From IMG/VR virus record IMGVR_UViG_3300008954_000022, positions 31,673-95,672 of that record: a stretch of 64,000 nucleotides of DNA; one strand, given 5' to 3'. The notes below the pieces were generated by a model. It ran no database searches, was not told the origin of the DNA, and worked only from the letters and a program-made list of their open reading frames with translations. The stretch comes from a virus. The first letter of the stretch is position 1, and the number at the start of each line of letters is the position of its first letter. Made by a program: the position numbers and the translations under genes. Below, in pieces: positions 16,425 through 64,000 of this stretch.

Positions 16425-16895
16425 ATGGCAAAGCTTACGCGCACTAACCTAAAAATGTTAGTCAAAGAGTGCTTAGTGGAGTTACTCGCTGAAGGCCTCT
16501 CAGATAATTCTAGTGTGCTTCGTGAATCACTAGTGAGACACGAGCCTGTAGCACCACCCTCGGTTTCTGGTCGAAGTGGTCGATTCCAGTCACAGCAATC
16601 GCTTCATCCTCCGAAGAATCCTGCACTTGACGGTACGAGGTTCAATAGTGCAGTGGACACTGCGGTCCGTGAGTTAACAAGCAATCCAATGATGGCAGAT
16701 ATTTTTGCGGATACTGCCAGAACAACGCTCCAGGAGCAGAATGCAGCTGGATCACCTGGAGGTGTTGGTGGCGCCGCTGATATGACAGAAGTTTTTGATG
16801 CACCTGGTGGTGATATATCCAGCATGACAGAGTTTGCAGGCGCCTCGAAGAACTGGGAGGCTCTAGCATTCGGTGATGGCTCAAAAAAGCTCTAG
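16425..16895 (+). CDS. Head-module protein with capsid-targeting-like leader, unknown
   Basis: A 156-residue protein. The first 24 residues form a basic amphipathic helix (TNLKMLVKECLVELLAEG) ending in L21-A22-E23 followed by Gly, an excellent match to the (L/I)-x-E cleavage rule of T4 gp21. Residues ~28-75 are low complexity (SGRSGRFQSQQSLHPP), and the C-terminal half is Ala/Gly/Asp-rich with short helices. There are no enzymatic motifs. It lies 5 nt after the preceding gene, within the protease-scaffold interval. I infer an internal head or core protein processed by the protease two genes upstream; this is a hypothesis. Confidence 0.55.
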   Translation: MAKLTRTNLKMLVKECLVELLAEGLSDNSSVLRESLVRHEPVAPPSVSGRSGRFQSQQSLHPPKNPALDGTRFNSAVDTAVRELTSNPMMADIFADTARTTLQEQNAAGSPGGVGGAADMTEVFDAPGGDISSMTEFAGASKNWEALAFGDGSKKL

Positions 16896-16921
16896 GGTCA
16901 ATCTAGATCCAGAAGATTTTT

Positions 16922-16950
16922 TGCGAACTTGATATGTATGATATGCGAAC
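16922..16950 (+). promoter_or_regulatory. Direct repeats TGCGAAC and TGATATG in the gap before a basic head protein
   Basis: In an 83-nt intergenic gap, TGCGAAC occurs at 16922-16928 and 16944-16950, exactly 22 nt apart (two helical turns), and TGATATG occurs at 16930-16936 and 16939-16945 between them. This spacing is typical of a protein-binding site. A weaker late-box variant (ACGCTTAT, 16951) follows, then TAGGAG before the ATG at 16979. Confidence 0.3.
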
Positions 16951-16978
16951 ACGCTTATCATTGTAGGAGATACAACAA

Positions 16979-17293
16979 ATGGCACGAAGAGTTAGAAGGT
17001 TGACACCCACACTCCTCCGGAGAATGGTCCTCGAGGAAAAGTCTAAATTCGAAAGATCACGACGTCGACGTCGAATTCGTGAGACATCTGATCCTGTAGA
17101 GGCAGGTATTGAAGATCCCGAAAAGGTCCAGGCCGACGAGGTCGAGCCCGGCGATGAGGCTGAGTCCATTGCCAAGGATATTGACTGGATGAGAGCTCTT
17201 AAGATTCAAGAGAGAAAGCTCAGTTCAAAGTTGCGTAGAATTCAAGAGACCAAGAGGCGCCTTAGAGCACGAGTCGTGCGGCGTCTCTCGTAG
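16979..17293 (+). CDS. Small very basic head-module protein with leader-like N-terminus
   Basis: A 104-residue protein, highly basic at both ends (RSRRRRRIRE near 26-35; RRLRARVVRRLS at the end) with an acidic middle (EDPEKVQADEVEPGDEAE). The N-terminus RRLTPTLLRRMVLEEKS is a further example of the recurrent amphipathic leader, with V-L-E and L-E-E as possible protease sites. Predicted helical throughout. The ribosome site TAGGAG is well placed for ATG 16979. Size, charge pattern and position suggest a prohead core or DNA-associated internal protein, comparable in position though not in sequence with T4 gp67/gp68. Confidence 0.6.
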   Translation: MARRVRRLTPTLLRRMVLEEKSKFERSRRRRRIRETSDPVEAGIEDPEKVQADEVEPGDEAESIAKDIDWMRALKIQERKLSSKLRRIQETKRRLRARVVRRLS

Positions 17294-17313
17294 GATATTA
17301 AGGAGATCAAGAG

Positions 17314-17790
17314 ATGCCTACTCACAAGCAAATAACAGTTGAGTCCACACCCACTGAGAGGTTTATGGGACGCTCGGCCAGTAATGACCTGGGCACAGCC
17401 TATCCTGCTTCTCCCATGGTTCTGGGTGATATGACCGATGACGAGAGGCGTCAGTGGTTTCAAGACAATGTTCTGGACGCCGTTATCAATGACGGCGGTC
17501 ACACATTCGGAGAGATTGATACATCCTACACTAATGCTCCCGATCTAGCCGATGTTGAGACAGGCGGAGGTGGGCTGCCCGGAAGCGCACATGTGCCCAA
17601 CCCAGTATCTCCTGGGCCTGGAAGCCACAATCCCGCTGATATTGCTGATCCCCCCGACGGTTGGGGGCTCAAGCCTTCAGACACGTGGGGTTCAGGCGTT
17701 GGCTCTCAACTCCAGCCTAAGGCATCTTCTGAGAAGATCTCCGGACAAACCCTGGGGGCGTATATTCTGGGTAAGTCCTCGGCTGAGTAA
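17314..17790 (+). CDS. Low-complexity head-module protein, unknown
   Basis: A 158-residue protein of mostly disordered composition (Gly, Pro, Ser, Asp) with a short ordered stretch DDERRQWFQDNVLDAVI at ~43-59 and a C-terminal GQTLGAYILGKSS. No Cys, no membrane helix. ATG 17314 follows AAGGAGATCAAGAG, a good ribosome site. It belongs to a run of three extended, low-complexity proteins between protease and scaffold genes. The C-terminal L-G-K motif could be an interaction tail. Function unknown; probable virion or scaffold accessory by context. Confidence 0.5.
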   Translation: MPTHKQITVESTPTERFMGRSASNDLGTAYPASPMVLGDMTDDERRQWFQDNVLDAVINDGGHTFGEIDTSYTNAPDLADVETGGGGLPGSAHVPNPVSPGPGSHNPADIADPPDGWGLKPSDTWGSGVGSQLQPKASSEKISGQTLGAYILGKSSAE

Positions 17791-17795
17791 TACTA

Positions 17796-18395
17796 ATGGC
17801 GCAGGAACCAGCCGGTGGACAGATGAACCACGGCACGGTGGTCTTTGAGGGCCCTGCGCCAACAGCCGCATCAACAAATGTTGAGGGTGCTGGTCTAGCA
17901 AAGTCAAATAAGGATCGACTAGGCAAGGGGTTTCCCAACTCCCCTATGTTGGGCGCTGCGCCAAGCTACACCCCGGACGTAGTAAGGGGACTCCATCACA
18001 AGCTAATTACTAATAGTGTAGATGATAAATCCCGAACAGACGCCGCAGGCTACTGGGGATTTTCAGCACCTGAGTCTGATGAGGTTAACCCCTCCAGTAC
18101 TGACATGGTATTTCCTGCCCCAGATGTTAGCGCTGTTGAGGTATCGGGCCCGGACGCTACTCCTCTGGCTAGCCCGTATATTCCCAATCTCCTTCCGCCC
18201 GCTCTAGGCGATGCTAATGACAATCCGGATGGGGAAGCGACTAAAAGCTTTGCAGAATCAAAGACTTCCAGGCCGCCGTTCTCAGGACCGGGGCTTGCGT
18301 CTCCGGATGAGGATGGAATCCTCGGCCGAAATCCGAGCGCTACTTCAGCAGAGATACAGAGCCGACCCTGGCGCACAAAGCCAAGTGACAGCTAA
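17796..18395 (+). CDS. Pro/Ser/Gly-rich disordered protein, unknown
   Basis: A 199-residue protein with almost no predicted regular structure: repeated Pro-Ser-Asp-Gly phrases and few hydrophobic stretches. The start ATG at 17796 is reached through TAATACTAATGGC, and almost the same sequence recurs at its own 3' junction (18393-18406). No ribosome site is visible, so translation may be coupled to the upstream stop, 5 nt away. Context places it in the head operon between protease and scaffold. Function unknown; the high coding regularity and lack of stops support it being expressed. Confidence 0.5.
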   Translation: MAQEPAGGQMNHGTVVFEGPAPTAASTNVEGAGLAKSNKDRLGKGFPNSPMLGAAPSYTPDVVRGLHHKLITNSVDDKSRTDAAGYWGFSAPESDEVNPSSTDMVFPAPDVSAVEVSGPDATPLASPYIPNLLPPALGDANDNPDGEATKSFAESKTSRPPFSGPGLASPDEDGILGRNPSATSAEIQSRPWRTKPSDS

Positions 18396-18412
18396 ATACT
18401 AATGGCTGATCC

Positions 18413-18961
18413 ATGAGAGAATCTATTGGAGCTCTTAATCAGCATGATGCGAATACAGACTCGGGGTACGGCAGATCCAGCGATCGACTATTCAAACCGA
18501 GGCAGACTGGAAGTCACTTCCCCTATAAGACACCTGATGCGTACGAAGATGACGACGATCTAGACCTGGGTGACTCAGAGGAAGTAATTAGCAAGAAGCA
18601 TAGACCCTACAATGCCAGCGACCCGCTGGCATTCAAAGGAACAACTCCATTTTACTTCGCCGCCGGAAATACCAAACTTTCAGATTGTTTCGAAAGACCG
18701 GATGATGTTCTTCGTGAGGTGGAGAGTACAGGGAAATCAATGTCACCCAAACATAAATCTCCCGGTGTAGGGCGAGGGGCTCACCCATACATGACTGTGG
18801 GCTCAGCCAAGAGAACTGGAACGACCCGAGGTTGGGCCTCTCCTCCACCGCCTGTTAAAACTGATCGTGGCCTTGAAGAGCTCGAGACCAGTGAGGAGCA
18901 GAATCCTCTAGACTGGGTCTTTGATGATCCTCATGAGTCCTGGATCTGGGACGCGAAGTAA
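18413..18961 (+). CDS. Low-complexity head-module protein, unknown
   Basis: A 182-residue hydrophilic protein with an acidic tract EDDDDLDLGDSEE near residues 45-57, and later Pro-rich phrases (WASPPPPV) and a Trp-containing end (WVFDDPHESWIWDAK). One Cys, no membrane helix. The ATG at 18413 is used here because an earlier ATG at 18402, in the expected place after the junction repeat, is followed by a stop after four codons. A one-base change would join the two. Function unknown. It shares with the two preceding genes a composition suggesting an extended virion or scaffold-associated protein. Confidence 0.5.
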   Translation: MRESIGALNQHDANTDSGYGRSSDRLFKPRQTGSHFPYKTPDAYEDDDDLDLGDSEEVISKKHRPYNASDPLAFKGTTPFYFAAGNTKLSDCFERPDDVLREVESTGKSMSPKHKSPGVGRGAHPYMTVGSAKRTGTTRGWASPPPPVKTDRGLEELETSEEQNPLDWVFDDPHESWIWDAK

Positions 18962-18965
18962 GAAA

Positions 18966-19208
18966 GTGTCGAAGCCAGTAAATGTCTCAGTTCGCCTCGG
19001 AGGAAAGATTCGAACATCTGAGCAGTTGATAAGACTATTCATAAGGAAGTGCAAGCGAGAAAGAATAGTACAGGAATACAGGGAATCTCTGGTATACGAG
19101 ACAAAAGGTCAGAAGCGCCGCCGAAAGAAGGCGCAGGGCAAAGCTCGGCGCAAGAGAGAAGAGGACAGCAACAAGAGTGATTCTACGAAAGATAAATTGA
19201 GGCGCTGA
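18966..19208 (+). CDS. rpsU: Ribosomal protein bS21 homologue
   Basis: An 80-residue protein with the bS21 layout: an N-terminal beta strand (VNVSVRLGG), a helix (SEQLIRLFIRKCKRERIVQE), then a long, very basic helix (RRRKKAQGKARRKREE). Host bS21 is ~60-70 residues and binds the small subunit near the anti-Shine-Dalgarno region; phage copies are known in aquatic phages and are thought to exchange with the host protein and influence initiation. The GTG at 18966 follows the previous stop by 4 nt; an in-frame ATG at 18921 would overlap the upstream gene by 41 nt and add a segment absent from the family. Its place inside the head operon implies late expression. Confidence 0.72.
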   Translation: MSKPVNVSVRLGGKIRTSEQLIRLFIRKCKRERIVQEYRESLVYETKGQKRRRKKAQGKARRKREEDSNKSDSTKDKLRR

Positions 19209-19211
19209 ATC

Positions 19212-19219
19212 ATATTTAG
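19212..19219 (+). promoter_or_regulatory. Candidate late promoter box ATATTTAG before the scaffold gene
   Basis: An exact match to the recurrent box, 28 nt before the scaffold ATG at 19248 in a short intergenic gap. A 10-bp palindrome CACACGTGTG follows at 19226-19235 and could be part of the leader. Confidence 0.5.
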
Positions 19220-19247
19220 ACACAACACACGTGTGAGAGAGAGGATT

Positions 19248-21017
19248 ATGAGTCAAAATCTTTATGACGACGCGATCGCCGAAGCACTCAGACTTGCCGA
19301 TATGGCTGAGGAGAATGCTCGGAACAAGATCATTGATGCAGTAACTCCTAGAATTAGGAGCCTCATTGAGCGTCAACTCCTGGGAGAGGACGATGGTCTG
19401 GATCCCTTGGACGACGAGCTCGAGGACGATGCCCCCGCAGGTGATGAAATACCTGGCGAGGGAGGACCTGAGGTTCTCGATCTAGACGCTGCATCTGATG
19501 ATTTAGCCGTCCCCGAAGCTCCGTCTGATGACCTCGGCATGCCGCCGGCGTCGCTAGAGCCGATGGGAGCACCTGTTGATCTAGCACTTCCAGGGGATGA
19601 TGATGCTGATGCAGCATCGGTCTCTGTAACACCTGACGGTGAAGTGGAGGTATCAGTAGGCGACATCAGTATTGAGGTCGACACTTCATCGGATGAGGGG
19701 GGCTTTGAGGATGAGGACGACCTCCTTCTCGGCCAAGAGGTCGCCGAGGCCCTGGCTCGTATGGTCTCACAAAGTACAACAGGACGACAGCGACTCCAGA
19801 AGAGAATTAAACTTCTTGAGTCTAGAATCAAAGTTTTAAGAAAAGCCCTGCCAATTGCCAAGAGGGCAGGTTCGACAAATAGACAGCGTCAACGAATAGC
19901 CCAGATTTTTGAATCCCTGGCACGTGAGGCAGTCATTTTGCGACGGCAGGTAATACTTACAGAGCAGGATACAGGAGGAACACTCCTAGAAAAAGCTCGC
20001 ATCAATTCTGTGATTAAGGAGATGAAGCAAATGTCAAGGCGTAGAAACAGGAACATCTTCGATTTTCTCTTCGAACAAGAAGAGGACCTCGAACTCGCAC
20101 CCGAGGAGGGGGAAGCCGTTGAAGGCGAAGAGGCACCGTTAGAGGAGCCAGATATCGACGCAGCGGAAGACGCCCTACTCGATCTAGGTGACGCACTCGG
20201 CCTTGAGGTCGAAGTACTGCCCCCAGAGGGCGAAGAGGGTGAAGAGGGTGAAGAGGCTCCTGAAGATGAGCTCGATCTCGAAGAAACCTATGAAATCGAT
20301 GAGGCAATGCTTCGTCGGGAGCTTCGTAGAATTCGTAAGCTTAATGAGAACGATCCAGTCGACGGCTCCGGAGACTCCTCGTTTGGCGGCGGTGACGCCG
20401 AAGACGAGCCCTTCGTAGAGGTAGATGAGGACGACCTTCTCAATGCCCTGGCCGACGAGCTTGGAGATGCTCCAGTTCCTGACGCCGGCGGTGGACAGCC
20501 TCCCGGACACGACGCGATGCCAGAGTCTTATAGAAGGAGACGCGCACGCGTGCGAAGGATGCGTGAGGCAGCACGACGACGTGCCAGCGCTCGAGGACGA
20601 CGACCAGTCGCCCGACGTAGCACCGGTGGAAGACGTAGTGCCGCTGGTGGTCGACAGATCGCCGAGTATCGCAAGGTGGTGAGTGCACTCAAGGGGCAAC
20701 TTACCGAAATGAATCTTTTCAATGCGAAGCTGCTTTATGCAAACAAGCTAATCCAGAATCGCAATCTAACAGCTAAGCAGCAAAGAGCAATAGTCGAGGC
20801 CCTGGATAATGCCAAGACGCTCCGCGAGGCAAAGCTTCTTTACAAGAGCTTGACTTCTTCGCTCAAGAAGGTCTCCAGGAAGAACCTTCAAGAGGGACGT
20901 AGCTCAAGATCGCTCGGATCATCCTCCAGATCAACCCGGTCGGCTTCGCCGTCCAACAGTGGGAATGAGGTGGATCGATGGGCAGTCCTCGCCGGTATTG
21001 ACAACGGTGGGAACTAA
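19248..21017 (+). CDS. 22: Prohead core scaffolding protein (T4 gp22-like)
   Basis: A 589-residue protein immediately before the major capsid gene. It is dominated by very acidic low-complexity regions (residues ~45-170 and ~275-360), broken by basic coiled helices (~175-270) and an Arg-rich patch near 430-465 (RRRASARGRR). The C-terminal ~475-545 segment (LTEMNLFNAKLLYANKLI and TLREAKLLYKSL) is the part characteristic of myovirus scaffold proteins. T4 gp22 is 269 residues, so this one is about double, by acidic insertions. Many (L/I)-x-E sites would allow destruction by the gp21 protease. ATG 19248 is chosen over GTG 19233 because GAGAGAGG precedes it. Confidence 0.75.
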   Translation: MSQNLYDDAIAEALRLADMAEENARNKIIDAVTPRIRSLIERQLLGEDDGLDPLDDELEDDAPAGDEIPGEGGPEVLDLDAASDDLAVPEAPSDDLGMPPASLEPMGAPVDLALPGDDDADAASVSVTPDGEVEVSVGDISIEVDTSSDEGGFEDEDDLLLGQEVAEALARMVSQSTTGRQRLQKRIKLLESRIKVLRKALPIAKRAGSTNRQRQRIAQIFESLAREAVILRRQVILTEQDTGGTLLEKARINSVIKEMKQMSRRRNRNIFDFLFEQEEDLELAPEEGEAVEGEEAPLEEPDIDAAEDALLDLGDALGLEVEVLPPEGEEGEEGEEAPEDELDLEETYEIDEAMLRRELRRIRKLNENDPVDGSGDSSFGGGDAEDEPFVEVDEDDLLNALADELGDAPVPDAGGGQPPGHDAMPESYRRRRARVRRMREAARRRASARGRRPVARRSTGGRRSAAGGRQIAEYRKVVSALKGQLTEMNLFNAKLLYANKLIQNRNLTAKQQRAIVEALDNAKTLREAKLLYKSLTSSLKKVSRKNLQEGRSSRSLGSSSRSTRSASPSNSGNEVDRWAVLAGIDNGGN

Positions 21018-21053
21018 TCGAACTACTGAAATAGGACTTTTAAGGAGAAACAA

Positions 21054-22943
21054 ATGTCCAAGAATTTTACACTTGATCAACTAACAGAGGGCATCCGGCA
21101 GCGGCACCTCGGTTCTCAGAACCGTCGTCTCGTTGAGAAGTGGGCCCGCACCGGCCTCCTCCGTGGCCTTGAGGGTGTTCATCGAGAGAACATGTCCAGA
21201 ATGCTTGAAAACCAGGCTGGCCAGCTACTCCGTGAGCGTTCCACCCTGTCCACAGGAGCCAGCGCCCTAACCAACGCAAATGACATTGCGGGATTCACCA
21301 ACGTGGCATTCCCAATCGTCCGCCGCGTGTTCGGCGGCCTGGTAGCCAATGAGCTGGTTTCTATCCAGCCCATGAGCCTACCTTCCGGCCTGCTGTTCTA
21401 CCTCGACTACCAGTATGGCTCTGATGGCGGCGCTGATGCCTCCTCAACAGAGGCAGTCTACAGTCAGGGAGACTCCATCTATAACAGCCCAACCGGCAAG
21501 GGCGTACGCTCCGGTTCACTAGGAACCGGCGGCCAGTACGACCTCGCAGGCAGTGGCTTCTCGCGCGTACACAGCAATACAGACCTGGATGCTGATATTT
21601 TCCTCGCTTCCGGTTCGTATGTGGGTGCTGCTTCAGCCGGCGGAAACTGGTCTGATGGTGGCAAGCTTCACGCGACGGGATCTGATGGCAAGCTTCTCCA
21701 GTTCGATCCACAGATCGCTGCGCTGATTGAGGATGACCCCAATCGAGCGAACACTGGACAGTTCCAGGCAGTTGTCCTCAATCTGGGTAACGCCTGCTTC
21801 TCCAATGCGGACCTCACCCTGGTGAAGGACATTGCGCTTCACTTCGGTGCTGCATCACCCAGCTCTGCATCCGGTCTTCCCAAGACGGTTCAGGGCGGTG
21901 TCGGTATCGTCAATGTGCGACGCCTCAACCAGATTGGAACGTGGACGAACAACGTGTTCACTGCTGATCCTCTCGTTAATCGGGCATCCACCGGTGCAGC
22001 TCTGATGGCTGTTATCTCCGGATCGATGCTTGATGATGCAGATCGTCAGAAGCTTGAGGTCTCCGTCGTTCTGGATTCCGCATTGAACGCCTCGAACGGT
22101 GAGACCCTTGTGGTTCCCGCCTTTGAGTCGGACTTCGGTGCAACACCAACTCCGGCAATCCCAGAGATCGATATCAAGATCGAGTCGATCGCTGTGACAG
22201 CGGTAACCAGAAAGCTGCGTGCCAAGTGGTCACCAGAACTCGCTCAGGACCTGAACGCCTACCACAGCCTCGACGCTGAGGTGGAGCTAACCCAGATCCT
22301 CTCCGAGCAGATCGCCCTAGAGTTGGACCGAGAGATTCTCAACGACCTGCTCACCCAGGCGAATGGTGCAAACCTCTACTGGAGTCGTGCACCTGGTAAG
22401 TTCGTCAACAAGGAGTCTGGCGCTGAGATCAATCAGAGCTCCAGTCTCGCTCCTGGACCCTCCTTCACGGGAACCGTCCGCGAGTGGTATGAGACTCTCA
22501 TTGAGACCGTCATTGACGTGGCAAACACCATTCATCGCAAGACGCTGCGTGGTTCTGCTAACTTCGTCGTGGTCGGTCCCGATGTGGCGACTATCCTTGA
22601 GGCATCGGTCTTCTATCGTCCGTCCTACACCCTAGACGGTGAGGGACAGGTCAGTGGTCCGATCTCCCTGGGAGCCGAGAAGGTCGGTACCCTGAGCAAT
22701 CGTTTCACGGTCTACAAGGACCCCTACTTCCCACGCAACAAGATTCTTGTTGGTTACAAGGGTGGTAGCTACCTTGAGACGGGATACGTCTACGCTCCGT
22801 ACGTGCCGCTTATCGTCACCCCGACGATCTTCGCACCCGAGGACTTCACTCCTCGCAAGGGCGTGATGACCCGTTACGGCAAGAAGATGGTTCGTTCCGA
22901 TTTCTACGGAACAGTGACACTCATGGATATGAACGTCATCTAG
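21054..22943 (+). CDS. 23: Major capsid protein precursor (T4 gp23-like)
   Basis: A 629-residue capsid protein (T4 gp23 is 521) of HK97 fold. The N-terminal propeptide has the T4-like sequence NRRLVEKWARTGLL and a likely cleavage site L59-R60-E61 before RSTLSTG. The mature part begins with the conserved AFPIVRRVFGGLVANELV, and the C-terminus has APYVPLIVTPTIFAPEDFTPRKG, a hallmark of this family. An extra ~100 residues of Gly/Ser-rich sequence at ~120-230 fit an inserted surface domain. The ribosome site TAAGGAGAAACAA is the strongest type in the window. A terminator follows. High expression is expected. Confidence 0.93.
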   Translation: MSKNFTLDQLTEGIRQRHLGSQNRRLVEKWARTGLLRGLEGVHRENMSRMLENQAGQLLRERSTLSTGASALTNANDIAGFTNVAFPIVRRVFGGLVANELVSIQPMSLPSGLLFYLDYQYGSDGGADASSTEAVYSQGDSIYNSPTGKGVRSGSLGTGGQYDLAGSGFSRVHSNTDLDADIFLASGSYVGAASAGGNWSDGGKLHATGSDGKLLQFDPQIAALIEDDPNRANTGQFQAVVLNLGNACFSNADLTLVKDIALHFGAASPSSASGLPKTVQGGVGIVNVRRLNQIGTWTNNVFTADPLVNRASTGAALMAVISGSMLDDADRQKLEVSVVLDSALNASNGETLVVPAFESDFGATPTPAIPEIDIKIESIAVTAVTRKLRAKWSPELAQDLNAYHSLDAEVELTQILSEQIALELDREILNDLLTQANGANLYWSRAPGKFVNKESGAEINQSSSLAPGPSFTGTVREWYETLIETVIDVANTIHRKTLRGSANFVVVGPDVATILEASVFYRPSYTLDGEGQVSGPISLGAEKVGTLSNRFTVYKDPYFPRNKILVGYKGGSYLETGYVYAPYVPLIVTPTIFAPEDFTPRKGVMTRYGKKMVRSDFYGTVTLMDMNVI

Positions 22944-23031: not shown

Positions 23032-23036
23032 GTGGT

Positions 23037-34538: not shown

Positions 34539-34901
34539 GTGAGAGTTAGAAGAAATCGGCTGAGGGTAATCATTCGTGAGTGCATTCTCGTCGAGAAGGG
34601 TGAGGCGTACGCCTCCGACGTCACCAAGCTTAAACCAGAGATTGAGGAGTGGGTCGGTGTACTCATTGATGAGCTCGGAAAAACCTCACCTCGTGTCTTA
34701 GAGATGGATGATAGGCGTAGAGGTGCTGTGATCCGTCGATTAACAGACGCTGTTGCGTTGGAGATGATCGACGTGTTTGGACATCCCATTGATCCCAAAA
34801 AGATAAAGAAGCGCGAGCGGGATAAGTGGAAGAAGGAGGAGCAGGAAGAGTTATCTCAACGTGCTTCTAAAGTTAACTACTACGGCCGCGGCGGCTACTA
34901 A
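34539..34901 (+). CDS. Small basic protein with capsid-targeting-like leader, unknown
   Basis: A 120-residue helical, charged protein. The first 21 residues (VRRNRLRVIIRECILVEKG) form the recurrent basic amphipathic leader, with L17-V18-E19 as the candidate protease site. The rest has a helical domain (IEEWVGVLIDELGK, RRGAVIRRLTDAVALEMIDV) and a very basic C-terminal tail ending in YYGRGGY. The GTG at 34539 follows CAGGAGGCACTG, a strong ribosome site. Located just after a terminator, at the head of the next operon. Function unknown; packaging in the head is proposed from the leader. Confidence 0.55.
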   Translation: MRVRRNRLRVIIRECILVEKGEAYASDVTKLKPEIEEWVGVLIDELGKTSPRVLEMDDRRRGAVIRRLTDAVALEMIDVFGHPIDPKKIKKRERDKWKKEEQEELSQRASKVNYYGRGGY

Positions 34902-51166: not shown

Positions 51167-51751
51167 ATGAGCAGAAATAAGTCAGAAGTATTTATTAGAA
51201 GGCAGGTCCGACGGGCCCTGAGACAGATCCTCCTTGAGCAGGATGACAAGCAGGATGACAAGCAGCAACGCGCCGCCGGCAAGTTCGAAGTTATCGCCCT
51301 CAAGGGTAGTGGTGGTGATATTTCTGGAGATCTCAAGAAGATTTTTGCCGGCGAGGGTGTGGATCCTAAAGATGTCAAGGCAGATGATCTACTATCACGA
51401 AAGAATCCTAGTCAGCTAATGAAGAACCTTGGCCTCTCTACTCCTGCAGGGACAGCCAGCATCGAGAAGCTCAAGAACTTTCTGAATCAGGCAGTCTCTG
51501 TGCGGGCGGAAATGTCTAGCGTCTATGACAAACCCACCATTAAGAAAGACAGCAAGGGACGAATCGCACTTCACGTAAGGTTTAGAGATCTCACAGATCA
51601 CCAGGGTCACTTCTTCATAAAGGAAACGCTCAAGGCTGCTGAAAAATCAGGCTATGTTCAACTTTCTGAGAAGATTCTTCGTGTGGCGAAAGAATCAGGA
51701 CATGTTGTTGTCTATCCCGCGAAGGACAGAAAAGACAAGTGGGGCCAGTGA
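51167..51751 (+). CDS. Protein with capsid-targeting-like leader, unknown
   Basis: A 194-residue basic protein. Residues 9-25 (FIRRQVRRALRQILLEQ) form the recurrent amphipathic leader with L22-L23-E24 as a possible cleavage site. A short low-complexity linker (DDKQDDKQQRAAG) follows, then a helical, Lys-rich domain without cysteine or catalytic signature; the last 70 residues (RIALHVRFRDLTDHQGHFFI onward) suggest a small alpha/beta unit. I use ATG 51167 rather than GTG 51143. It lies in the replication block, away from head genes, yet has the same leader as head-module proteins. Function unknown. Confidence 0.55.
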   Translation: MSRNKSEVFIRRQVRRALRQILLEQDDKQDDKQQRAAGKFEVIALKGSGGDISGDLKKIFAGEGVDPKDVKADDLLSRKNPSQLMKNLGLSTPAGTASIEKLKNFLNQAVSVRAEMSSVYDKPTIKKDSKGRIALHVRFRDLTDHQGHFFIKETLKAAEKSGYVQLSEKILRVAKESGHVVVYPAKDRKDKWGQ

Positions 51752-52430: not shown

Positions 52431-52844
52431 GTGAGCCTTCTTCGTAAGTACATTCGACAAATTATTCTCGAGCATGAGGGGTCGCTCGACGGAAGATGGA
52501 CTTCTACCGGTGTCCCAAATTCCGCTGGTGGGACGAGGACCGTTAGTGATACAAACAGCGACAACATGTCATGGTCATCCGAGGACGACACCGACGACGG
52601 CCCACCCGATGATCTTCTGATAGAGCCTGACTTTGTCGAGGATCCGGATGAGGAGGGTAAGGACATCCGCAAGGAGATCTCAGCCATCAGCGGAGGGGGC
52701 GGAGCAATGACTTCCACCAACGCGATTGGCGGCGCCACAACTCCTCTGGGAACTGGTCCCACCTACCCATCGAAGAAGAAAAAGAAGAAGCGCAAGAAGA
52801 AGGGGAAGTACCCCACGTACGGTACCCTCTCTAGCGACGATTAA
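52431..52844 (+). CDS. Protein with capsid-targeting-like leader and poly-Lys tail, internal head protein candidate
   Basis: A 137-residue protein in three parts. Residues 1-17 (LLRKYIRQIILEHEG) are the amphipathic leader with I12-L13-E14. Residues 18-110 are disordered and acidic. Residues ~115-127 are a strong basic run (KKKKKKRKKKGK) followed by YPTYGTLSSDD. A leader plus poly-Lys segment is what one would expect of a DNA-bound internal head protein. The GTG at 52431 has little ribosome site. Function is inferred from composition only. Confidence 0.5.
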   Translation: MSLLRKYIRQIILEHEGSLDGRWTSTGVPNSAGGTRTVSDTNSDNMSWSSEDDTDDGPPDDLLIEPDFVEDPDEEGKDIRKEISAISGGGGAMTSTNAIGGATTPLGTGPTYPSKKKKKKRKKKGKYPTYGTLSSDD

Positions 52845-57328: not shown

Positions 57329-59839
57329 ATGACTCAGATCACGTACGATGCTGCTTATGCTGCCTGTCTGGAATATTTTGACGGAGACAACCTAGCTGCA
57401 AATGTCTTCTTGACCAAGTACGCCCTGACTGACAGGGAGGGGAACCTTCAGGAGAGCACCCCGGATGACATGCATCACCGCATGGCCAGGGAGTTCGCAA
57501 GGATTGAGAGAAAGTATCCGAATCCGATGTCTGAGGAGGAGATCTACCAACTCTTCAGAAAGTTCAAGTATGTGATACCCCAGGGCTCACCCATGTCAGG
57601 TATCGGGAATGATTATCAGGTACAGTCAATTTCTAACTGCTTTGTTATTGAGTCCCCTCATGACTCCTACGGAGGTATCTGCAAGACAGATCAGGAGCTT
57701 GTCCAGATTGCTAAGCGCCGCGGCGGGGTGGGATTTGATATTTCCACGATTCGACCCAAGGGCCAGGCGACCGGTAACTGTGCCAGAACGACTGACGGGA
57801 TTGAAGTCTTCATGGACAGATTCTCTAACTCCTGTCGGGAGGTAGCCCAGGGCGGCCGCAGAGGTGCTCTGATGATAACACTCTCTGTGCATCACCCACA
57901 GATAAGGGATTTTATCCGTATCAAGCGGGACCTCCGACGAGTGACAGGAGCGAACATCTCCGTCAGACTTACGGATGAGTTCTTGCAGGCTGTCTCTGAC
58001 GATGCCAATGTGGAGTTGAGATTTCCTATTGATGCTGCCTCTCCGGAGATTTCTAATCAGGTTAAAGCAAAGGAGCTCTGGGACGAGATTATTGAGAGCG
58101 CGCACGAGTGTGCAGAGCCAGGTCTTCTAATGTGGGACAATGCAAAGAGGCTCACTCCGTCGGATGTGTATGATGATGTGGGCTTCGGATCGACATCGAC
58201 GAACCCATGTGCGGAGATCGTGCTGTCCCCGTATGACAGCTGTCGTCTAATGATTGTCAATCTACTGAGCTTCGTTGAAGAGCCCTTTGCTGACTCCGCA
58301 AGGTTCAACTATGAGAGGTTCGATGAGGTGGTTCAGCAGGCACAGCGTCTAATGGATGACATGATCGACCTCGAGATTGAGCAGATTGAGAAGATTCTGG
58401 ACAAGATTCATAATGATCCGGAACCGGAGGCTGTGAAGGCCATTGAGCGAGAGCTCTGGCAGAACATAAGAACCCAAGCCGAGAGGGGACGACGCACCGG
58501 CCTGGGAGTTACCGCCGTCGGTGATGCTCTGGCAGCATTGAATATTCGGTACGGAAGTCGTGAGTCAATTGATACAGTCGAGAGGTTCTACCGAGCTTTG
58601 GCAACTGGAGCGTATCGCTCATCTTGTATAATGGCCCGAGACAGGGGCGCATTTCCTATTCACAGTCATCAGAAGGAGCAGGGACACGAGTTCCTGGAGC
58701 GAATCTGGGATACGGATGATGAGATTAGGCGCATGTCAGAGAAGTATGGCAGGAGAAATATTGCGCTGACGACTACTGCACCAGCAGGCTCTGTCTCTGT
58801 TCTAACACAGACGACCTCTGGTATTGAGCCGGCCTACCTTCTCAAGTACACCAGGCGAAAGAAGATCAACCAGGAAGCTGACCCACATGCTCAGGTGGAT
58901 TTTGTAGATGATGTGGGTGACTCGTGGCAGGAGTACGAAGTATATCACCATGGCTACAAGAAGTGGCTTGACAAATACAGCAATACAGTTGCCAAGGGTA
59001 TCGAAGCATCAGGGACTTCAGTGGATGAAGAGGGACTCATAGCAATGAGTCCATACTGGAAGTCGACCTCAGGAGACATTGATTGGATTGCGAAGGTCCG
59101 AATGCAGGCCGCAGCACAGAGGTGGATCTGTCACGCGATATCGAACACAACAAACGTACCTAAAGACACAGATAAGGCTACAGTCGCTGAGATTTACATG
59201 GAGGGCTGGCGCGCCGGATGCAAGGGTGTCACTGTCTACCGAGACGGCTCGAGGTCTGGTGTGCTAGTTGAGTCACGTGAAAACGAGGGGATCAGGTATC
59301 ACAGCTCTCCCAAGCGACCCTTGACGCTCCCCTGTGATATCCACCACGCCACTATCAAGGGTGAGAAGTGGACCATCCTTGTGGGTCTGCTCGACGGTCA
59401 ACCCTATGAGATTATAGGCGGATTGGCAGAGTTTGTTGAGATTCCAAAGAAGTATAACGTAGGCACAATTGCAAAGAGGCCTCGCAAGACGAGAAACTCC
59501 ATTTACGACCTCAGCTTTGGAGAGAACGGCAACGAGGTGACAATTAAGGATGTTGTGCGTGTCTTCGATAATCCCAACCACGCGGGATTCACGAGAATAA
59601 TGTCCCTAGCACTCAGGCACGGAGCTCCTCGTCAGTACATTGTCGAACAGCTCCAGAAGGACAAGGATGCTGACCTCTTCTCGTTTGCCAGAGTTACAGC
59701 GAGGGTCCTCAAGAAGTATATCAAGGATGGGACAGTCCCAGGAAAGACAACGTGTGAGAATTGTAGCTCTGAGGACACCCTAATCTATCAGGAGGGCTGT
59801 GTTACCTGCACGGCCTGTGGATTCGGAAAGTGCGGATGA
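57329..59839 (+). CDS. nrdJ: Class II (adenosylcobalamin-dependent) ribonucleotide reductase, NrdJ-like
   Basis: An 836-residue reductase in a single chain, with no NrdB-like partner. The active-site loop STNPCAEI gives N292, C294 and E296, the radical-site residues; RRGGVGFDISTIRPKG and APAGSVSVLTQTTSGIEP are the glycyl-barrel and substrate-binding phrases of the B12-dependent class. The C-terminus carries Cys pairs (TTCENC and CTACGFGKCG) that re-reduce the active site. It makes deoxynucleotides for phage DNA without needing oxygen or an iron subunit but depends on host cobalamin. It follows the helicase by 3 nt. Confidence 0.86.
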   Translation: MTQITYDAAYAACLEYFDGDNLAANVFLTKYALTDREGNLQESTPDDMHHRMAREFARIERKYPNPMSEEEIYQLFRKFKYVIPQGSPMSGIGNDYQVQSISNCFVIESPHDSYGGICKTDQELVQIAKRRGGVGFDISTIRPKGQATGNCARTTDGIEVFMDRFSNSCREVAQGGRRGALMITLSVHHPQIRDFIRIKRDLRRVTGANISVRLTDEFLQAVSDDANVELRFPIDAASPEISNQVKAKELWDEIIESAHECAEPGLLMWDNAKRLTPSDVYDDVGFGSTSTNPCAEIVLSPYDSCRLMIVNLLSFVEEPFADSARFNYERFDEVVQQAQRLMDDMIDLEIEQIEKILDKIHNDPEPEAVKAIERELWQNIRTQAERGRRTGLGVTAVGDALAALNIRYGSRESIDTVERFYRALATGAYRSSCIMARDRGAFPIHSHQKEQGHEFLERIWDTDDEIRRMSEKYGRRNIALTTTAPAGSVSVLTQTTSGIEPAYLLKYTRRKKINQEADPHAQVDFVDDVGDSWQEYEVYHHGYKKWLDKYSNTVAKGIEASGTSVDEEGLIAMSPYWKSTSGDIDWIAKVRMQAAAQRWICHAISNTTNVPKDTDKATVAEIYMEGWRAGCKGVTVYRDGSRSGVLVESRENEGIRYHSSPKRPLTLPCDIHHATIKGEKWTILVGLLDGQPYEIIGGLAEFVEIPKKYNVGTIAKRPRKTRNSIYDLSFGENGNEVTIKDVVRVFDNPNHAGFTRIMSLALRHGAPRQYIVEQLQKDKDADLFSFARVTARVLKKYIKDGTVPGKTTCENCSSEDTLIYQEGCVTCTACGFGKCG

Positions 59840-59843
59840 GATC

Positions 59844-60446
59844 ATGAAGTGGACAACAGAGATATCGCCACTCCTCAAGGAGTACGAGCTGAGGAAGAAC
59901 ATTGTGATTCCCCGGGTCAACAAGTTCGATGAGAACAGCGCGAAAAAATTTGTGGACGAGATGGCCAAGGCTCACAACTCCGGGCAGCCCGTCATTCCCG
60001 TGATAATTGACTCCTATGGAGGACAGGTCTATTCCCTGATGACGATGATAGCTGCGATTCAGGATGCTGAGATTCCTGTTGCAACAATTGTTGAGGGCAA
60101 GGCAATGTCCTGTGGAGCGATTCTCTTCTCCTTTGGAAGGGAGGATTATCGATTCATGGATCCAAACGCCACAGTGATGATTCACGATGTCTCCTCTATG
60201 GAGTACGGAAAGGTCGAGGAGATCAAGGCCTCGGCCGACGAGACAGAGAGACTGAATCAGATTGTGTATCGGATGATGGGTCGAAATTGTGGAAAGAAGG
60301 CAGATTACTTCTTAAAACTAGTTCACAAGCGCGGACACGCGGACTGGTTCCTAGATGCTGAAGAGGCGAAAAAGCACAATCTAGCCAACCACATCAGACT
60401 TCCCAAGCTGCATATTACGGTCAGTGTTGACATCGATTTTGAGTAG
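59844..60446 (+). CDS. ClpP-like serine protease
   Basis: A 200-residue ClpP/crotonase-fold protease: VIIDSYGGQVYS strand and oxyanion-type loop, nucleophile S89 in EGKAMSCGAIL, and general base H114 in TVMIHDVSS. The Asp of the triad should lie ~45-50 residues later. The C-terminal ~20 residues (LHITVSVDIDFE) are unusual. The phage already has a gp21-type head protease, so this enzyme more likely acts on host or phage regulatory proteins, alone or with host ClpX/ClpA; this is inference. ATG 59844 is preferred to an in-frame TTG at 59799 that overlaps NrdJ. Gap to NrdJ is 4 nt. Confidence 0.8.
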   Translation: MKWTTEISPLLKEYELRKNIVIPRVNKFDENSAKKFVDEMAKAHNSGQPVIPVIIDSYGGQVYSLMTMIAAIQDAEIPVATIVEGKAMSCGAILFSFGREDYRFMDPNATVMIHDVSSMEYGKVEEIKASADETERLNQIVYRMMGRNCGKKADYFLKLVHKRGHADWFLDAEEAKKHNLANHIRLPKLHITVSVDIDFE

Positions 60447-60462
60447 CACTTAGTCTCCCCTC

Positions 60463-60470
60463 CTACTTAC
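60463..60470 (+). promoter_or_regulatory. Variant late promoter box CTACTTAC before the endolysin
   Basis: One mismatch from ATAYTTA, 35 nt before ATG 60506, the same spacing as the exact boxes. A CTTACA/TGTAAG hairpin (60466-60489) overlaps it. Confidence 0.35.
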
Positions 60471-60505
60471 ACTACAACAGTACTGTAAGTCCACGGGGGT
60501 GGAGC

Positions 60506-61441
60506 ATGTCATTTGATAAGGAATTCTATAATCAGGCCAGCGCTGAGAAGCTAGGCTGGGACCCTAAGTGGTTCGGTGTAACAGAGAACGATGATCGTCT
60601 CATCGAGGCTGTCAAGAAGTGGCAACGGGCCAGAAGCCTCAAGTCAGACGGACTAGTTGGTCCCATGACATTTCGACGTGTCTGGACAGAGCGTGAGGCA
60701 CAGATCTCAAGTGCGCGTGATGCTCCAGGTTTTGGATATGAGAGCTCACCTTCTGTCTGTCATGAGCCGACGATTGTGCATAATGGGACACACTACCCAA
60801 TCAAGTGGCCGCGTGTTATTCTCTGGGATGAGCCCGACGGTCTTAAGACTGCACCAGGAAGCTACTCCTCCTATGCGGGCAAGGAGCCACGAAAGATAAA
60901 CCACTTCGTGAATCACTGGGATGTGTGTCTCTCTTCTGAGAGCTGCGCCAAAGTGTTGGCCAAACGAGGCATCTCGGTCCACTTCTGCATTGATAACGAT
61001 GGAACGATCTACCAGCTTCTCGACACGCAGCATGCGGCGTGGCAAGCGGGGGGCCGACTCTGGAACCACACAGGGATCGGTGTTGAGATAGCGAACGCGT
61101 ACTACCTGAAGTATCAGGACTGGTATGTGTCGAGAGGCTTTGGACCACGCCCAATTCAAGAACAGGGGCAGGTACACGGCAAAACCCTAAAGCCTTTCTT
61201 AGATTTTTATCCAGTCCAGCTTGAGGCTCTAAAGGCGCTGTGGGCTGCTGTGTCAGAGGCGCACAACATTCCTCTAGAGTGCCCAACAGACAATCGAGGA
61301 AAACTAGTGACAACCATCGATAATCGGTGTGTTCGAGGAGAGTTTAGTGGGTTTATCAATCACTACAATCTCACTAAGAGAAAGATTGACTGCGCTGGAC
61401 TCGATCTTGTAGACCTCCTGGACCAGGCCAAAGATCTCTAG
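60506..61441 (+). CDS. N-acetylmuramoyl-L-alanine amidase (endolysin) with N-terminal peptidoglycan-binding domain
   Basis: A 311-residue enzyme. Residues ~15-60 (DDRLIEAVKKWQRARSLKSD, GLVGPMTFRRVW) are a peptidoglycan-binding helical domain. Residues ~100-300 are Amidase_2/PGRP: Zn ligands H137 in FVNHWD, and H and C in FINHYNLTKRKIDCAG near 283-297, with substrate-side TQHAAWQAGGRLWNHTGIGV. It cuts the amide between muramic acid and the stem peptide to release progeny. No signal peptide or holin is adjacent. The GGGGGTGGAG ribosome site precedes ATG 60506. A tail-associated role is less likely given its place outside the tail block. Confidence 0.8.
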   Translation: MSFDKEFYNQASAEKLGWDPKWFGVTENDDRLIEAVKKWQRARSLKSDGLVGPMTFRRVWTEREAQISSARDAPGFGYESSPSVCHEPTIVHNGTHYPIKWPRVILWDEPDGLKTAPGSYSSYAGKEPRKINHFVNHWDVCLSSESCAKVLAKRGISVHFCIDNDGTIYQLLDTQHAAWQAGGRLWNHTGIGVEIANAYYLKYQDWYVSRGFGPRPIQEQGQVHGKTLKPFLDFYPVQLEALKALWAAVSEAHNIPLECPTDNRGKLVTTIDNRCVRGEFSGFINHYNLTKRKIDCAGLDLVDLLDQAKDL

Positions 61442-61482
61442 ACAACTGTGGCAGTGGGTAATACCTTTCAGTCGTTCGTGTA

Positions 61483-61490
61483 ATATTTAG
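61483..61490 (+). promoter_or_regulatory. Candidate late promoter box ATATTTAG before the 2H/CCA fusion gene
   Basis: An exact box in the gap after the endolysin, 34 nt before the TTG at 61525 and 16 nt before the alternative GTG at 61507. Confidence 0.45.
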
Positions 61491-61524
61491 TCTTACATAC
61501 AACGCTGTGTTCGGGGTAAGAGTA

Positions 61525-63201
61525 TTGTCCAAGAGAATCAACGAGCTTTCTTTAGGTGAACCGACAAAGAGTGTTGAGTACACTGGATTCGTACTTGACG
61601 CTGCTTCTCACCAGAAATTAGCTGCCCTCGCCCCGGAAGGCTGGAAGGTGTTCGCGCACCACATGACAGTCATTAATCCCCCAAACATGAAGAGGAGACT
61701 TCCAGCTCGATGGCTGGGAGCAGAGTTCTGTGTAAGGGTGGTTGGGGTTGCCCAGGACAGTATGGTTATGACAGCTCTTGTGGACTTGGGAGGCACACCT
61801 ATTCCAATGAAGGGCCCTGAGTATCCTCATGTGACCATCGCCACAAATCCCTCAGCCGGCGGAAAACCGGCAATGTCTAACTGGAAGTTCAAGCCGAAAA
61901 TTGACGAGTTTAATTTTCAGGAGATCACGCCCATCACGATCTGTGGAACGATTGAGGAAGTCATGCGAGAGGGAAGAAGATCGACCACACTCCGGAGACT
62001 TATTCGGGAGACCCTTCTTCGTGAAGCCCCGTCTGAAGAGCCAGTCAGGATGCCCTTGAACCTTCCAGTTCCAGCAGACATTCGTGACCTGACCAAGGAG
62101 TTTCGCGCTGCAGGGCACGAGCTCTATATTGTCGGCGGCGCAGTTCGAGATGCCCTGCTGAATAAGACACCTAAGGATTACGATCTTGCGACTAGCGCAC
62201 CGCCTGATAGAGTGATAGAAATACTCTCAGGATCGCCAGAGTTCCAGACCAAGCCCGTTGGTGAGGCGTTCGGTGTGGTGTTGGTGAAAACTCCGGATGG
62301 CAGTGAGTACGAGGTGGCAACCTTTCGAAAGGATATTGGTAAGGGTCGTCGCCCGGACTCGGTGGAGTTCACTGATATCAAGTCTGATGTTCAGCGACGC
62401 GACCTCACCATCAATGCTCTTTTCTACGACTTGGACACAGGAGAGGTGGTTGACTATGTGGGAGGTATTGAGGATCTAACCAATGGAGTAGTCCGGACTG
62501 TCGGACAACCTGAGGACAGGTTCGGTGAGGATAAGCTTCGAGTGCTTCGTGCGATTCGGTTCGCGGCGAGGTTAGGCTCGGATCTAGATCCTGACACCGC
62601 GCGCGCGATAAAGGAGGATCCCATTCTGGAGCAGGTCTCCTCCGAGAGAATACGGGATGAGTTCCTTAAGGGTATAGAGTCAGCACAGCGGGTACCTCAC
62701 TTTCTGGAGATGTTTGAGGAACTAGACCTCTTCGAGGAGGTCTTTCCTGGGCTCGAGGTTAACGCAGAGTATCACCAAGAGCGAGATCCAATAATCCAAT
62801 TGGCTCTTCTTCTTCGGGACAACGTGCCAACTGCAGTGTCACAGACACTTAAGAGTTTGAAGTATACAAACGAGGAAGTCAAGAAGATTGCCTTTCTCTT
62901 GGCATTCCAGGAGCTCCAGGAAACATCTGCACCCCAGCTTAAGAAGAGGTACAACGCATCAGGATTGAGTCCCGATCAGTTGAGTGTTTTTGCCGAGGCT
63001 GTGCAGGTGCCATCCGAAAGGCACGTTAGTGCTTTCCTTGAGTTCGCCGGGGCCCCACCATCTGCTGACCCCCGAGAGTTGATGTCACAGGGGTTGACAG
63101 GACCTGATATCGGAAAGGCGATGGAGGACGCGGAGTACGATGCTTATCGACAATTGGTGGGAGAGTCAGTACTACGAGCCTATATCAGGCTTTTCGCGTA
63201 G
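61525..63201 (+). CDS. 2H phosphoesterase fused to a CCA-adding tRNA nucleotidyltransferase
   Basis: One ORF with two enzymes. The N-terminal ~145 residues carry two H-x-T motifs, HHMTV and PHVTIA (His at DNA 61660 and 61828), the signature of 2H phosphodiesterases that act on 2',3'-cyclic phosphates and RNA ends. After a linker with RRLIRETLLREA, the C-terminal part is a class II nucleotidyltransferase: YIVGGAVRDALL, DYDLATSAPP (metal aspartates) and RRDLTINALFYD, then the helical neck/body DRFGEDKLRVLRAIRFAARL. Together they could open damaged tRNA ends and restore CCA. The start is TTG 61525 (GGGGTAAG upstream, MSKRINEL) or GTG 61507. An internal ATG at 61963 has GAGG five bases upstream. 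Confidence 0.8.
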   Translation: MSKRINELSLGEPTKSVEYTGFVLDAASHQKLAALAPEGWKVFAHHMTVINPPNMKRRLPARWLGAEFCVRVVGVAQDSMVMTALVDLGGTPIPMKGPEYPHVTIATNPSAGGKPAMSNWKFKPKIDEFNFQEITPITICGTIEEVMREGRRSTTLRRLIRETLLREAPSEEPVRMPLNLPVPADIRDLTKEFRAAGHELYIVGGAVRDALLNKTPKDYDLATSAPPDRVIEILSGSPEFQTKPVGEAFGVVLVKTPDGSEYEVATFRKDIGKGRRPDSVEFTDIKSDVQRRDLTINALFYDLDTGEVVDYVGGIEDLTNGVVRTVGQPEDRFGEDKLRVLRAIRFAARLGSDLDPDTARAIKEDPILEQVSSERIRDEFLKGIESAQRVPHFLEMFEELDLFEEVFPGLEVNAEYHQERDPIIQLALLLRDNVPTAVSQTLKSLKYTNEEVKKIAFLLAFQELQETSAPQLKKRYNASGLSPDQLSVFAEAVQVPSERHVSAFLEFAGAPPSADPRELMSQGLTGPDIGKAMEDAEYDAYRQLVGESVLRAYIRLFA

Positions 63202-63208
63202 GAGACAA

Positions 63209-63216
63209 ATAGTTAT
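63209..63216 (+). promoter_or_regulatory. ATAGTTAT motif before the ParB-like gene
   Basis: Third occurrence of the octamer, 24 nt before ATG 63241 and followed by GTGTAGGAGTGGGAG, which supplies a ribosome site. Confidence 0.22.
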
Positions 63217-63240
63217 GTTGTGTAGGAGTGGGAGACAAGT

Positions 63241-64000
63241 ATGAAACTTTCAATGAGGCAGCTGAGAAGATTGATTCTCACCGAGTCCAGAAGGACTCCA
63301 AGTCTAGTCGAACTATTGTTCGAAGAGGAGGAACTCAATTCGACCGAGCCTTCTGATTCTGGCGATGCCGGTGCAGATCTTGAGGCAGCATTCAAGGCAG
63401 GTCCCGAAGGGGTCCGGGCTTTTATGGATACCAACAAAGATGAGTCTGTAGTAGACATCTTAGCAAAAGCTGCTGAAGAATATGATGGATCCGCTGAGGA
63501 TGATGTGATTACTGTCGGTGGTGCAACGCCCACAGCTGTTAAGGATCTCGGACCTACACAACAATTCATTGATTTAATGCAGTCAGTTTCCTTTCCTCTT
63601 GGGAGTGCCAAGGTTTTGGACGGTGCAATCTCTAGCAAGACTACTGGGGCCCCAGGAGCAATTTCAGTTTCGGGTGGTGCAGTGTTAGATGGCCATCACA
63701 GGTGGTCAGGAGTTTTTGCCATCACCCCAGACGGCGCGATCAGTTCGAAGGATTTTGGGTTTCCCGGGGGTGTCACAGAGAAGCTAGCTGCGGCACAGAT
63801 GGCAGTTGCTGCTGTGAAAAAAGGAAAGGGTCAGCCCTCAAAGGGTGGCGGCGCTGCAACCGATATTATAGGTAAAGGAGCACCCGAGATTGTTGCTATG
63901 ATTGACGCAAACAAGGGTGAGCAGACAGATCCGGATGCTCCTGGACCCCTTCTCAACGACGAGATGATTCAGTCGATTGCTAATGGAGATTATCCTGGCA
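63241..64000 (+). CDS. ParB-like (Srx-type) protein with capsid-targeting-like leader, cut by the window end
   Basis: The frame is open to the end of the window, giving 253 residues of an unfinished protein. Residues 2-16 (KLSMRQLRRLILTES) are the recurrent basic amphipathic leader, with L13-T14-E15 before Ser as a protease site. An acidic linker follows. At residues 146-153 VLDGHHRW (D150-G-H-H-R-W) is the hallmark of the ParB/sulfiredoxin-type fold that binds nucleotides and, in several phage and plasmid proteins, cuts or marks DNA. A leader on such a protein suggests delivery into the host cell with the DNA. The GTGTAGGAGTGGGAG ribosome site precedes ATG 63241. The 3' end and full domain content are unseen. 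Confidence 0.6.
   Translation, partial: MKLSMRQLRRLILTESRRTPSLVELLFEEEELNSTEPSDSGDAGADLEAAFKAGPEGVRAFMDTNKDESVVDILAKAAEEYDGSAEDDVITVGGATPTAVKDLGPTQQFIDLMQSVSFPLGSAKVLDGAISSKTTGAPGAISVSGGAVLDGHHRWSGVFAITPDGAISSKDFGFPGGVTEKLAAAQMAVAAVKKGKGQPSKGGGAATDIIGKGAPEIVAMIDANKGEQTDPDAPGPLLNDEMIQSIANGDYPG

Follow-up and report, generated by a model that had tools for sequence, protein, structure and literature searches.

A short exchangeable leader on unrelated proteins of far-T4 phages, a probable capsid-targeting and maturation signal

The 64,000-nucleotide stretch analysed here (the window) comprises bases 31673-95672 of the 95,672-base virus record IMGVR_UViG_3300008954_000022 and contains a T4-type head module. 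Many unrelated proteins of the window and of related phages share a short leader (core h-(R/K)-x-h-(I/V/L)-x-E; h, hydrophobic; x, any residue), which is conserved at the peptide level, is modular and is tied to head genes and to records encoding a gp21-type prohead protease. The leader is probably (about 0.8) the capsid-targeting and maturation signal of these phages, working like the capsid-targeting sequence (CTS) of T4. The group is named far-T4 provisionally, on the ranking of capsid-protein similarity alone: the nearest neighbours of the window capsid protein among phage records are those of an uncultured 484-kb phage, Flavobacterium phage immuto and Microcystis phage Mel-JY01, and that of Rhodothermus phage RM378 is a little further away.

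The first-pass annotation had claimed six N-terminal leaders and a further copy at 61963 inside a fusion protein, and all seven peptides were found in place. The six N-terminal carriers, described there as otherwise unrelated, fall into six different blastp clusters. The starts at 51167 and 63241 stand, with the qualification that GTG 51143 is an alternative to the former and that the open reading frame (ORF) of the latter is cut short by the end of the 95,672-bp record. In the list below, homologues were picked by the mature part only, from ORFs that include loci fetched by the leader itself, and the fraction gives those with the leader at 10 bits or more.

16425..16496, + strand, leader MAKLTRTNLKMLVKECLVELLAEG of the putative prohead-core protein (ORF 16425-16895); 37/37 homologues
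16979..17044, + strand, leader MARRVRRLTPTLLRRMVLEEKS of a second head-module protein (ORF 16979-17293); 24/26 homologues
34539..34601, + strand, leader VRVRRNRLRVIIRECILVEKG (ORF 34539-34901); 5/5 homologues
51167..51241, + strand, leader MSRNKSEVFIRRQVRRALRQILLEQ (ORF from 51143 or 51167 to 51751); 3/5 homologues
52431..52481, + strand, leader VSLLRKYIRQIILEHEG (ORF 52431-52844, lysine-rich tail); 3/3 homologues
61963..62028, + strand, leader MREGRRSTTLRRLIRETLLREA between a 2H and a CCA-adding enzyme domain; predicted helix at residues 160-173
63241..63288, + strand, leader MKLSMRQLRRLILTES (ORF runs off the record); 3/11 homologues

The leader is amphipathic, with a hydrophobic moment of 0.42 compared with 0.29 for shuffled and 0.26 for internal sequences. 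In the AlphaFold model of the 16425 protein, for which the input alignment was chosen by the leader pattern, the N-terminus is a helix (residues 6-27) with a block predicted local distance difference test score (pLDDT) of 89 and 93 over residues 1-20, the remainder being mostly lower. The 52431-52844 protein and two leader proteins of other phages (G006:100173 and G002:55731) have an acidic middle and a common C-terminal P(L/I)G...YP tail followed by lysines, which suggests a second short signal.

A check of the kind proposed in the first-pass annotation, with a profile of the leaders run against related phages, gave a clear enrichment at N-termini. The first profile (14 columns) was built solely from the seven window leaders and was tested on 11 other related records, where it matched 120/1986 N-termini at 12 bits and 26/6474 internal 59-residue segments, a 15-fold difference. 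The ratio rises from 2-fold at 4 bits to 31-fold at 14 bits, and with the homologues of the window carriers removed 103/1966 N-termini still match at 12 bits. In the reverse direction, a profile was built on 118 non-homologous carriers found outside the window and run on its 70 ORFs; the six N-terminal leaders take the first six places. At 12 bits this profile matches 7/70 ORFs and 1/415 internal segments of the window; the seventh ORF, 18921, is S21-like and is taken as a chance match. The threshold of a refined profile was fixed to pass 0.2% of internal segments (14/6889 by construction). This profile matches 163/2056 N-termini in 12 records, a figure that is partly circular because the profile was trained on N-termini, and none of 2056 shuffled N-termini. 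With equal threshold and ORF calling it matches 0/1396 ORFs in 120 random viral contigs (1.04 Mb), 67/951 ORFs in relatives selected by capsid protein, and 389/1613 and 128/311 ORFs in loci fetched with two degenerate leader DNA patterns and thus selected for the leader. Among 84,980 bacterial and archaeal genomes the first of these patterns was found in 4, with 8 stretches spread over 5 contigs, and a gp21-type protease is present in two of the four. No ORF reached 8 bits in the 35 kb of phage RM378 that were scanned, tblastn of the short leader peptides in phage records gave weak matches only (the 484-kb LR756508 and three Streptomyces phages), and homologue scans for 51167 and for 34539 gave a single locus each.

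The carriers are numerous and diverse. Up to 51 of the 335 ORFs of one virus (273 kb) bear the leader, and the mature parts of the 163 carriers form 104 clusters by blastp at E 1e-3. A wider census (loci L004-L322, L466-L485 and L554-L563) gave 673 distinct complete carriers, 668 of which have at least 40 mature residues and form 381 clusters, 299 of them singletons; some clusters may merge, since remote homology can escape blastp at this cutoff. In a joint alignment of 116 carrier representatives, all of which bear the leader by construction, the starts have the consensus MKITxxQLRxIIxEE and there is little else in common. Where two leaders share a residue, they use the same codon for it in 0.335-0.411 of pairs, compared with 0.270-0.357 expected from codon usage (4 records), an excess slight enough to indicate selection on the peptide and not on a shared DNA element. 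A shared late promoter was also considered and rejected, as no enrichment of TATAAAT or similar words was seen upstream of carriers; that of GATAAAC is confined to G001 and G002, where paralogy may account for it.

The leader is linked to the head genes in both position and distribution. The head module of the window includes the following features.

10746, terminase
12494..14530, + strand, portal protein, gp20 type (phrog_213 E 6.6e-71)
15364..15978, + strand, prohead core serine protease, gp21 type, Peptidase_S77, with H79, S132 and D158 (phrog_207 E 2.4e-49; PF03420 E 1.1e-23)
19233..21017, + strand, scaffold-like protein upstream of the capsid gene, assigned to the gp22 position by location; h-x-E sites common to 33 to 50 of 51 sequences; no family match in a PHROG search
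21054..22943, + strand, major capsid protein, gp23 type, with conserved h-x-E at 12, 28, 52 and 61 (phrog_138 E 4e-72)

ORFs 16425 and 16979 lie between the protease and the capsid gene, and leader-bearing members of their clusters occur in 10 and 7 of the 12 records, respectively. The gp21-type protease that had been annotated at 15364 is borne out by both family matches and by its catalytic residues, which are identical in 15/15 aligned proteases including that of T4. The phrog_207 family was found in 14/17 capsid-selected records, in 19/23 leader-pattern records of at least 98 kb (including all those of at least 119 kb; the 23 are the listed records of this size outside the set scanned earlier) and in 1/12 random records of 40-218 kb (those of at least 40 kb among 80 listed of 120 loci); for records of at least 100 kb the counts are 18/20 leader-pattern and 1/4 random records. 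Of the seven misses, four also lack the capsid gene and three have it near the record end. In G002 (88442-90055) and LR756508 (156480-158198) the protease gene is interrupted near profile position ~90 by about 1 kb in frame, giving an open frame of ~575 codons, as with an intein.

Conservation of the leader in homologues had been named in the first-pass annotation as a point on which the idea could fail; the leader is mostly kept in homologues of 16425, 16979, 34539 and 52431, and less consistently in those of 51167 and 63241. At a stricter threshold of 14.75 bits it is present in 35 (16425), 16 (16979), 4 (34539), 2 (51167), 2 (52431) and 2 (63241) homologues. Among the 12 homologues below 10 bits, two, scoring 8.1 and 8.2 bits, seem to belong to this type and one has a second type of leader, KLIFENWRKFVNE; most of the remainder have other short h-x-E starts, as judged by eye, which are weak evidence because h-x-E is common.

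Two further genes of the window deserve mention. ORF 18921-19208, in the head module, resembles ribosomal protein S21 (PF01165 E 7.7e-6, 26.0 bits compared with a cutoff of 27), and an annotated S21 gene likewise lies between the protease and the capsid gene of Mel-JY01. A ClpP-like protease gene (59799-60446, PF00574 E 6.7e-24) adjoins the endolysin-like ORF 60506.

The gp21 protease cleaves after (L/I)-x-E. The first-pass annotation had placed such a site at or near the end of each leader, and by this sequence rule the E of the core (+6) completes an h-x-E in 132/163 carriers. The motif peaks again at +10 (44 carriers), +11 (23), +14 (24) and +19 (12), compared with ~2% per position in controls, although the signal at +9/+10 is partly selected since the profile extends to +10. 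A further h-x-E lies 9-24 residues behind the core L in 111/163 carriers and in 2941/10968 internal windows (27%), and in 48 of these 111 carriers the next residue is A, S or G. In the capsid protein the N-terminal h-x-E sites (here h is L, I, V or M) at 12, 28, 52 and 61 are kept in 61, 56, 61 and 61 of 61 sequences; they are suggestive only, because conserved h-x-E sites also occur in the body of the protein and conservation alone is no mark of cleavage. In T4 a propeptide of 65 residues is removed from gp23 (PMC5694885), and A-x-E is the site of the related SPN3US protease (PMC10052503).

The copy at 61963 lies mid-way in a 564-residue frame, between two domains.

61567..61971, + strand, 2H-type 2',3'-cyclic phosphodiesterase domain, residues ~21-155 of the fusion ORF 61507-63201 (PF08302; Foldseek to CNPase E 3e-3)
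62044..63201, + strand, CCA-adding enzyme domain (PF01743 E 1.7e-34; Foldseek to CCA-adding enzymes E 6e-20)

The PF08302 match of the window 2H domain (E 0.0027) is below the cutoff and that of the homologue L513 (2.3e-6) is above it. AlphaFold places the leader between two confident domains as a low-confidence helix (residues 160-173, block pLDDT 51-62; below 50 at 156-159, 161-163 and 173-175). The homologue L506 (best segment 90% identical) retains the leader and has TTG in place of the ATG, and just upstream there is GAGGA in the window and GAGGAGG in L506; as TTG can start translation, an internal start at 61963 is possible beside an interdomain role. Elsewhere the leader stands at the start of the CCA enzyme in L507 and, below 12 bits and plain by eye, in L322; the enzyme is preceded by other domains in G003, G000 and L506, and no leader was found at 10 bits on the CCA enzymes of L508, L509, L514, L516, L517 and L520. 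In total, 28 internal windows exceed the refined threshold, of which nine (in seven ORFs) are read as lying between domains, about four as true starts missed by ORF calling, three as C-terminal and at least three as chance matches in conserved proteins. The match at G007 53628 is read as chance because homologues run through on both sides. Of the 11 such ORFs that were examined, at least 5 have a part next to the tag that is encoded elsewhere by a gene of its own with a leader; this applies to both parts of the window CCA fusion and to parts of G003 232930, 234546 and 239141 and of G006 40529.

The carriers had been described as mostly of unknown function, and few Pfam matches were indeed obtained among 73 representatives (window fusion included) and a further 116. 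Those found are GNAT, PolyA polymerase/CCA, Fe/Mn superoxide dismutase, PAP2, Zeta toxin/AAA_33, cytidylyltransferase-like, HAD-like, HD, exonuclease, tRNA-ligase CPD and Peptidase_M78, and weakly EF-hand and ART-PolyVal, to which PHROGs add polynucleotide kinase and 5'-3' deoxyribonucleotidase; each family has one to three representatives. G002 has 10 paralogous carriers (e.g. 181405) with the leader and a YHGT motif that we take to be ADP-ribosyltransferase-like; a leucine-rich-repeat part was found as well in the one paralogue scanned (PDB match E 7e-29).

The leader also appears to be exchangeable between lineages. Several phages encode a protein with a 2H domain next to a 5'-nucleotidase-like protein. 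The pair starts with MNLLREYISELLTE and ...LLREYISEVLQ in G003, with MKLLLENWRKYINE and MKLLLENWRKYLKE in G053, and with LILERWSRYLNE and LILESWNRFLNE in G056 (8.5 kb). In G003 the first tag type is on 20/290 ORFs and the second on none; in G053 the second type is on 8/124 ORFs and 0/675 internal segments, compared with 1/1474 ORFs of random contigs, its pattern having been written after inspection of the G053 starts. The tags of this homologous cargo pair thus differ between G003 and G053, and each matches the tag on the other proteins of its own phage. Among the matches listed, nucleotidase homologues in two random contigs begin directly at the domain. Searches of phage records gave weak Rheinheimera matches only for the second type, and Flavobacterium immuto phages only for a third. 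In phage immuto four proteins start like FDLKKFLVEN and two with LAGIITES, and three exceed the threshold of the present profile, one of them (at residue 44) probably by chance. The tag types found fit h-x-x-h-(I/L/V)-x-E, the spacing of T4 MKTYQEFIAE. Among the matches listed for LR756508 (181604-335625; L475-L482) about ten proteins, related to one another, begin with short sequences that resemble the T4 one (such as MKFKELLKEQ and MKLQDLLLEN) and are followed by a YRG-like motif.

Capsid targeting with gp21-type cleavage, as proposed in the first-pass annotation, fits the tests best; this is support for the mechanism from sequence and not proof of it. The reading is favoured by a protease of the right family, leaders on head-module proteins, h-x-E sites, the swappable module and T4-like cargo. 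Newly made proteins bearing the amphipathic helix would dock in the prohead core, and the shell would close round them; the docking probably relies on helix packing against the similar leaders of the 16425 and 16979 proteins. The 15364 protease may then remove the tag by cutting after an h-x-E that lies within the helix or directly behind it; the protease and the candidate sites are observed, and docking, cutting and delivery are what we infer. The same protease could separate domains at interdomain tags and trim the N-terminus of the capsid protein. By analogy with T4, the freed cargo would remain in the head beside the DNA and enter the next host cell, and the tag would be a module of which each phage attaches its own version to any protein to be delivered. 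A more specific form of this reading, to which we give roughly even odds, is that a label used throughout the far-T4 phages, specific to each lineage and swappable, loads dozens of enzymes per virion, among them a tRNA-mending kit (2',3'-cyclic phosphodiesterase, polynucleotide kinase and CCA-adding enzyme), ADP-ribosyltransferases and superoxide dismutase, as a counter-defence and host-takeover proteome that arrives ready-made together with the DNA, with fused cargo acting as a polyprotein that is cut at internal labels in the head.

Several observations weigh against capsid targeting with cleavage. No second h-x-E follows the core in 52/163 carriers, and the body of the capsid protein has five equally conserved h-x-E sites (371, 418, 477, 484 and 516). 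Three internal matches lie at C-termini, where none would be expected of a propeptide confined to the N-terminus, although C-terminal cleavage is also described for T4 Alt (PMC5694885). The leader is found in only 3/11 homologues of 63241, and neither protease nor capsid gene was found in the 102-kb record G053. The generic h-x-x-h-(L/I)-x-E is enriched 2.2-fold at N-termini even in random viral contigs, compared with 1.8-8.5-fold in 20 other sets, so that counts of this motif or of (L/I)-x-E are weak evidence. By profile search, carriers of this leader type number none in T4, none in cyanophage S-RSM4 and one in Mel-JY01. The first two points, and the place of the E at +6 in the conserved core, would suit a scaffold-docking helix that is never removed and that brings proteins to the prohead core or to other parts of the virion, its E residues forming a helix face. 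This is unlikely in view of the excess of further h-x-E sites over control windows and the A, S or G that often follows them, the copies in flexible linkers between domains, and the gp21-type protease with its conserved catalytic residues.

Still less likely is a localisation or oligomerisation helix that acts in the infected cell (at a membrane, a replication compartment or a hub protein) and is unrelated to the virion. The amphipathic moment agrees with such a role and many carriers are enzymes that possibly act during infection, but the leader is also on genes between the protease and the capsid gene, its conserved acidic residues are ill-suited to a membrane anchor, and it is associated with the gp21 protease, although shared ancestry alone could produce this association. 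That there is no functional signal, the likeness being due to duplicated N-termini, a shared translation-initiation DNA element or greedy ORF calling, is very improbable. Some carriers are paralogous (10 in G002), carriers cluster (31 adjacent pairs in G001 compared with 7.6 expected) and codon agreement slightly exceeds expectation; the explanation is already contradicted by the 381 clusters, the near-random codons, the copies between domains and the complete lack of matches in random contigs under the same ORF calling.

The injected proteomes of uncultured phages escape ordinary annotation. If capsid targeting is the function of the leader, nothing more than the sequence and a short profile would be needed to list the virion-borne proteins of a widespread phage group; most such proteins are without known function and would be suggested as candidates for early host takeover and counter-defence. 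Capsid targeting in T4-like phages would then be a general, exchangeable code and not a peculiarity of T4, and the leaders would be a new set of tags with which phage heads could be loaded with proteins.

The closest known system is the T4 CTS, likewise a short peptide at the N-terminus of head cargo proteins that have nothing else in common, in a phage with a gp21-family protease. Internal proteins are described in a review as highly diverse and conserved in the CTS alone (PMC3012670), propeptides of 10-20 residues are described in another paper (PMC5694885), the CTS is absent from other core proteins according to a T4 review (PMC9958956), and T4 packages the ADP-ribosyltransferase Alt (PMC5512222, PMC9958956). 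T4 IPII and IPIII start with MKTYQEFIAE, which has the h-x-x-h-I-x-E spacing of the leader; with no T4 carrier found by the profile, only the spacing h-x-x-h-(I/L)-x-E is in common. The leader differs from the CTS in its sequence, in its number (up to 51 carriers per genome), in its presence on head-module proteins and between domains, and in having several tag types. A description of it was not found in the literature searched, including the available text of a far-T4 genome paper (PMC4360716) and a jumbo-phage overview (PMC7824862), with most subscription papers and all bioRxiv preprints outside the coverage; as far as these searches reach, the scale, the several tag types and the interdomain use are undescribed. 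In phage P1 the N-terminal 30 residues of DarB send a reporter to the capsid (PMC9024508), a comparable N-terminal packaging peptide that was tested on one large protein and is likened here by description and not by sequence. Inner-head proteins of phiKZ-type phages (substrates of SPN3US gp245) have N-terminal propeptides that are cut after A-x-E by a gp21-related protease (PMC5694885, PMC10052503); unlike the leader, most of those named exceed 100 residues, and no shared short tag was found described in the text available. Polyvalent proteins (Iyer and others 2017) are multidomain proteins, predicted to be injected, that combine ADP-ribosyltransferase with other conflict domains (PMC5512222), and the part of that work available gave no description of a common targeting peptide. 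One carrier weakly matches ART-PolyVal (E 0.00094) and some are multidomain; most carriers are small, and here the tag also stands between the domains of fusions.

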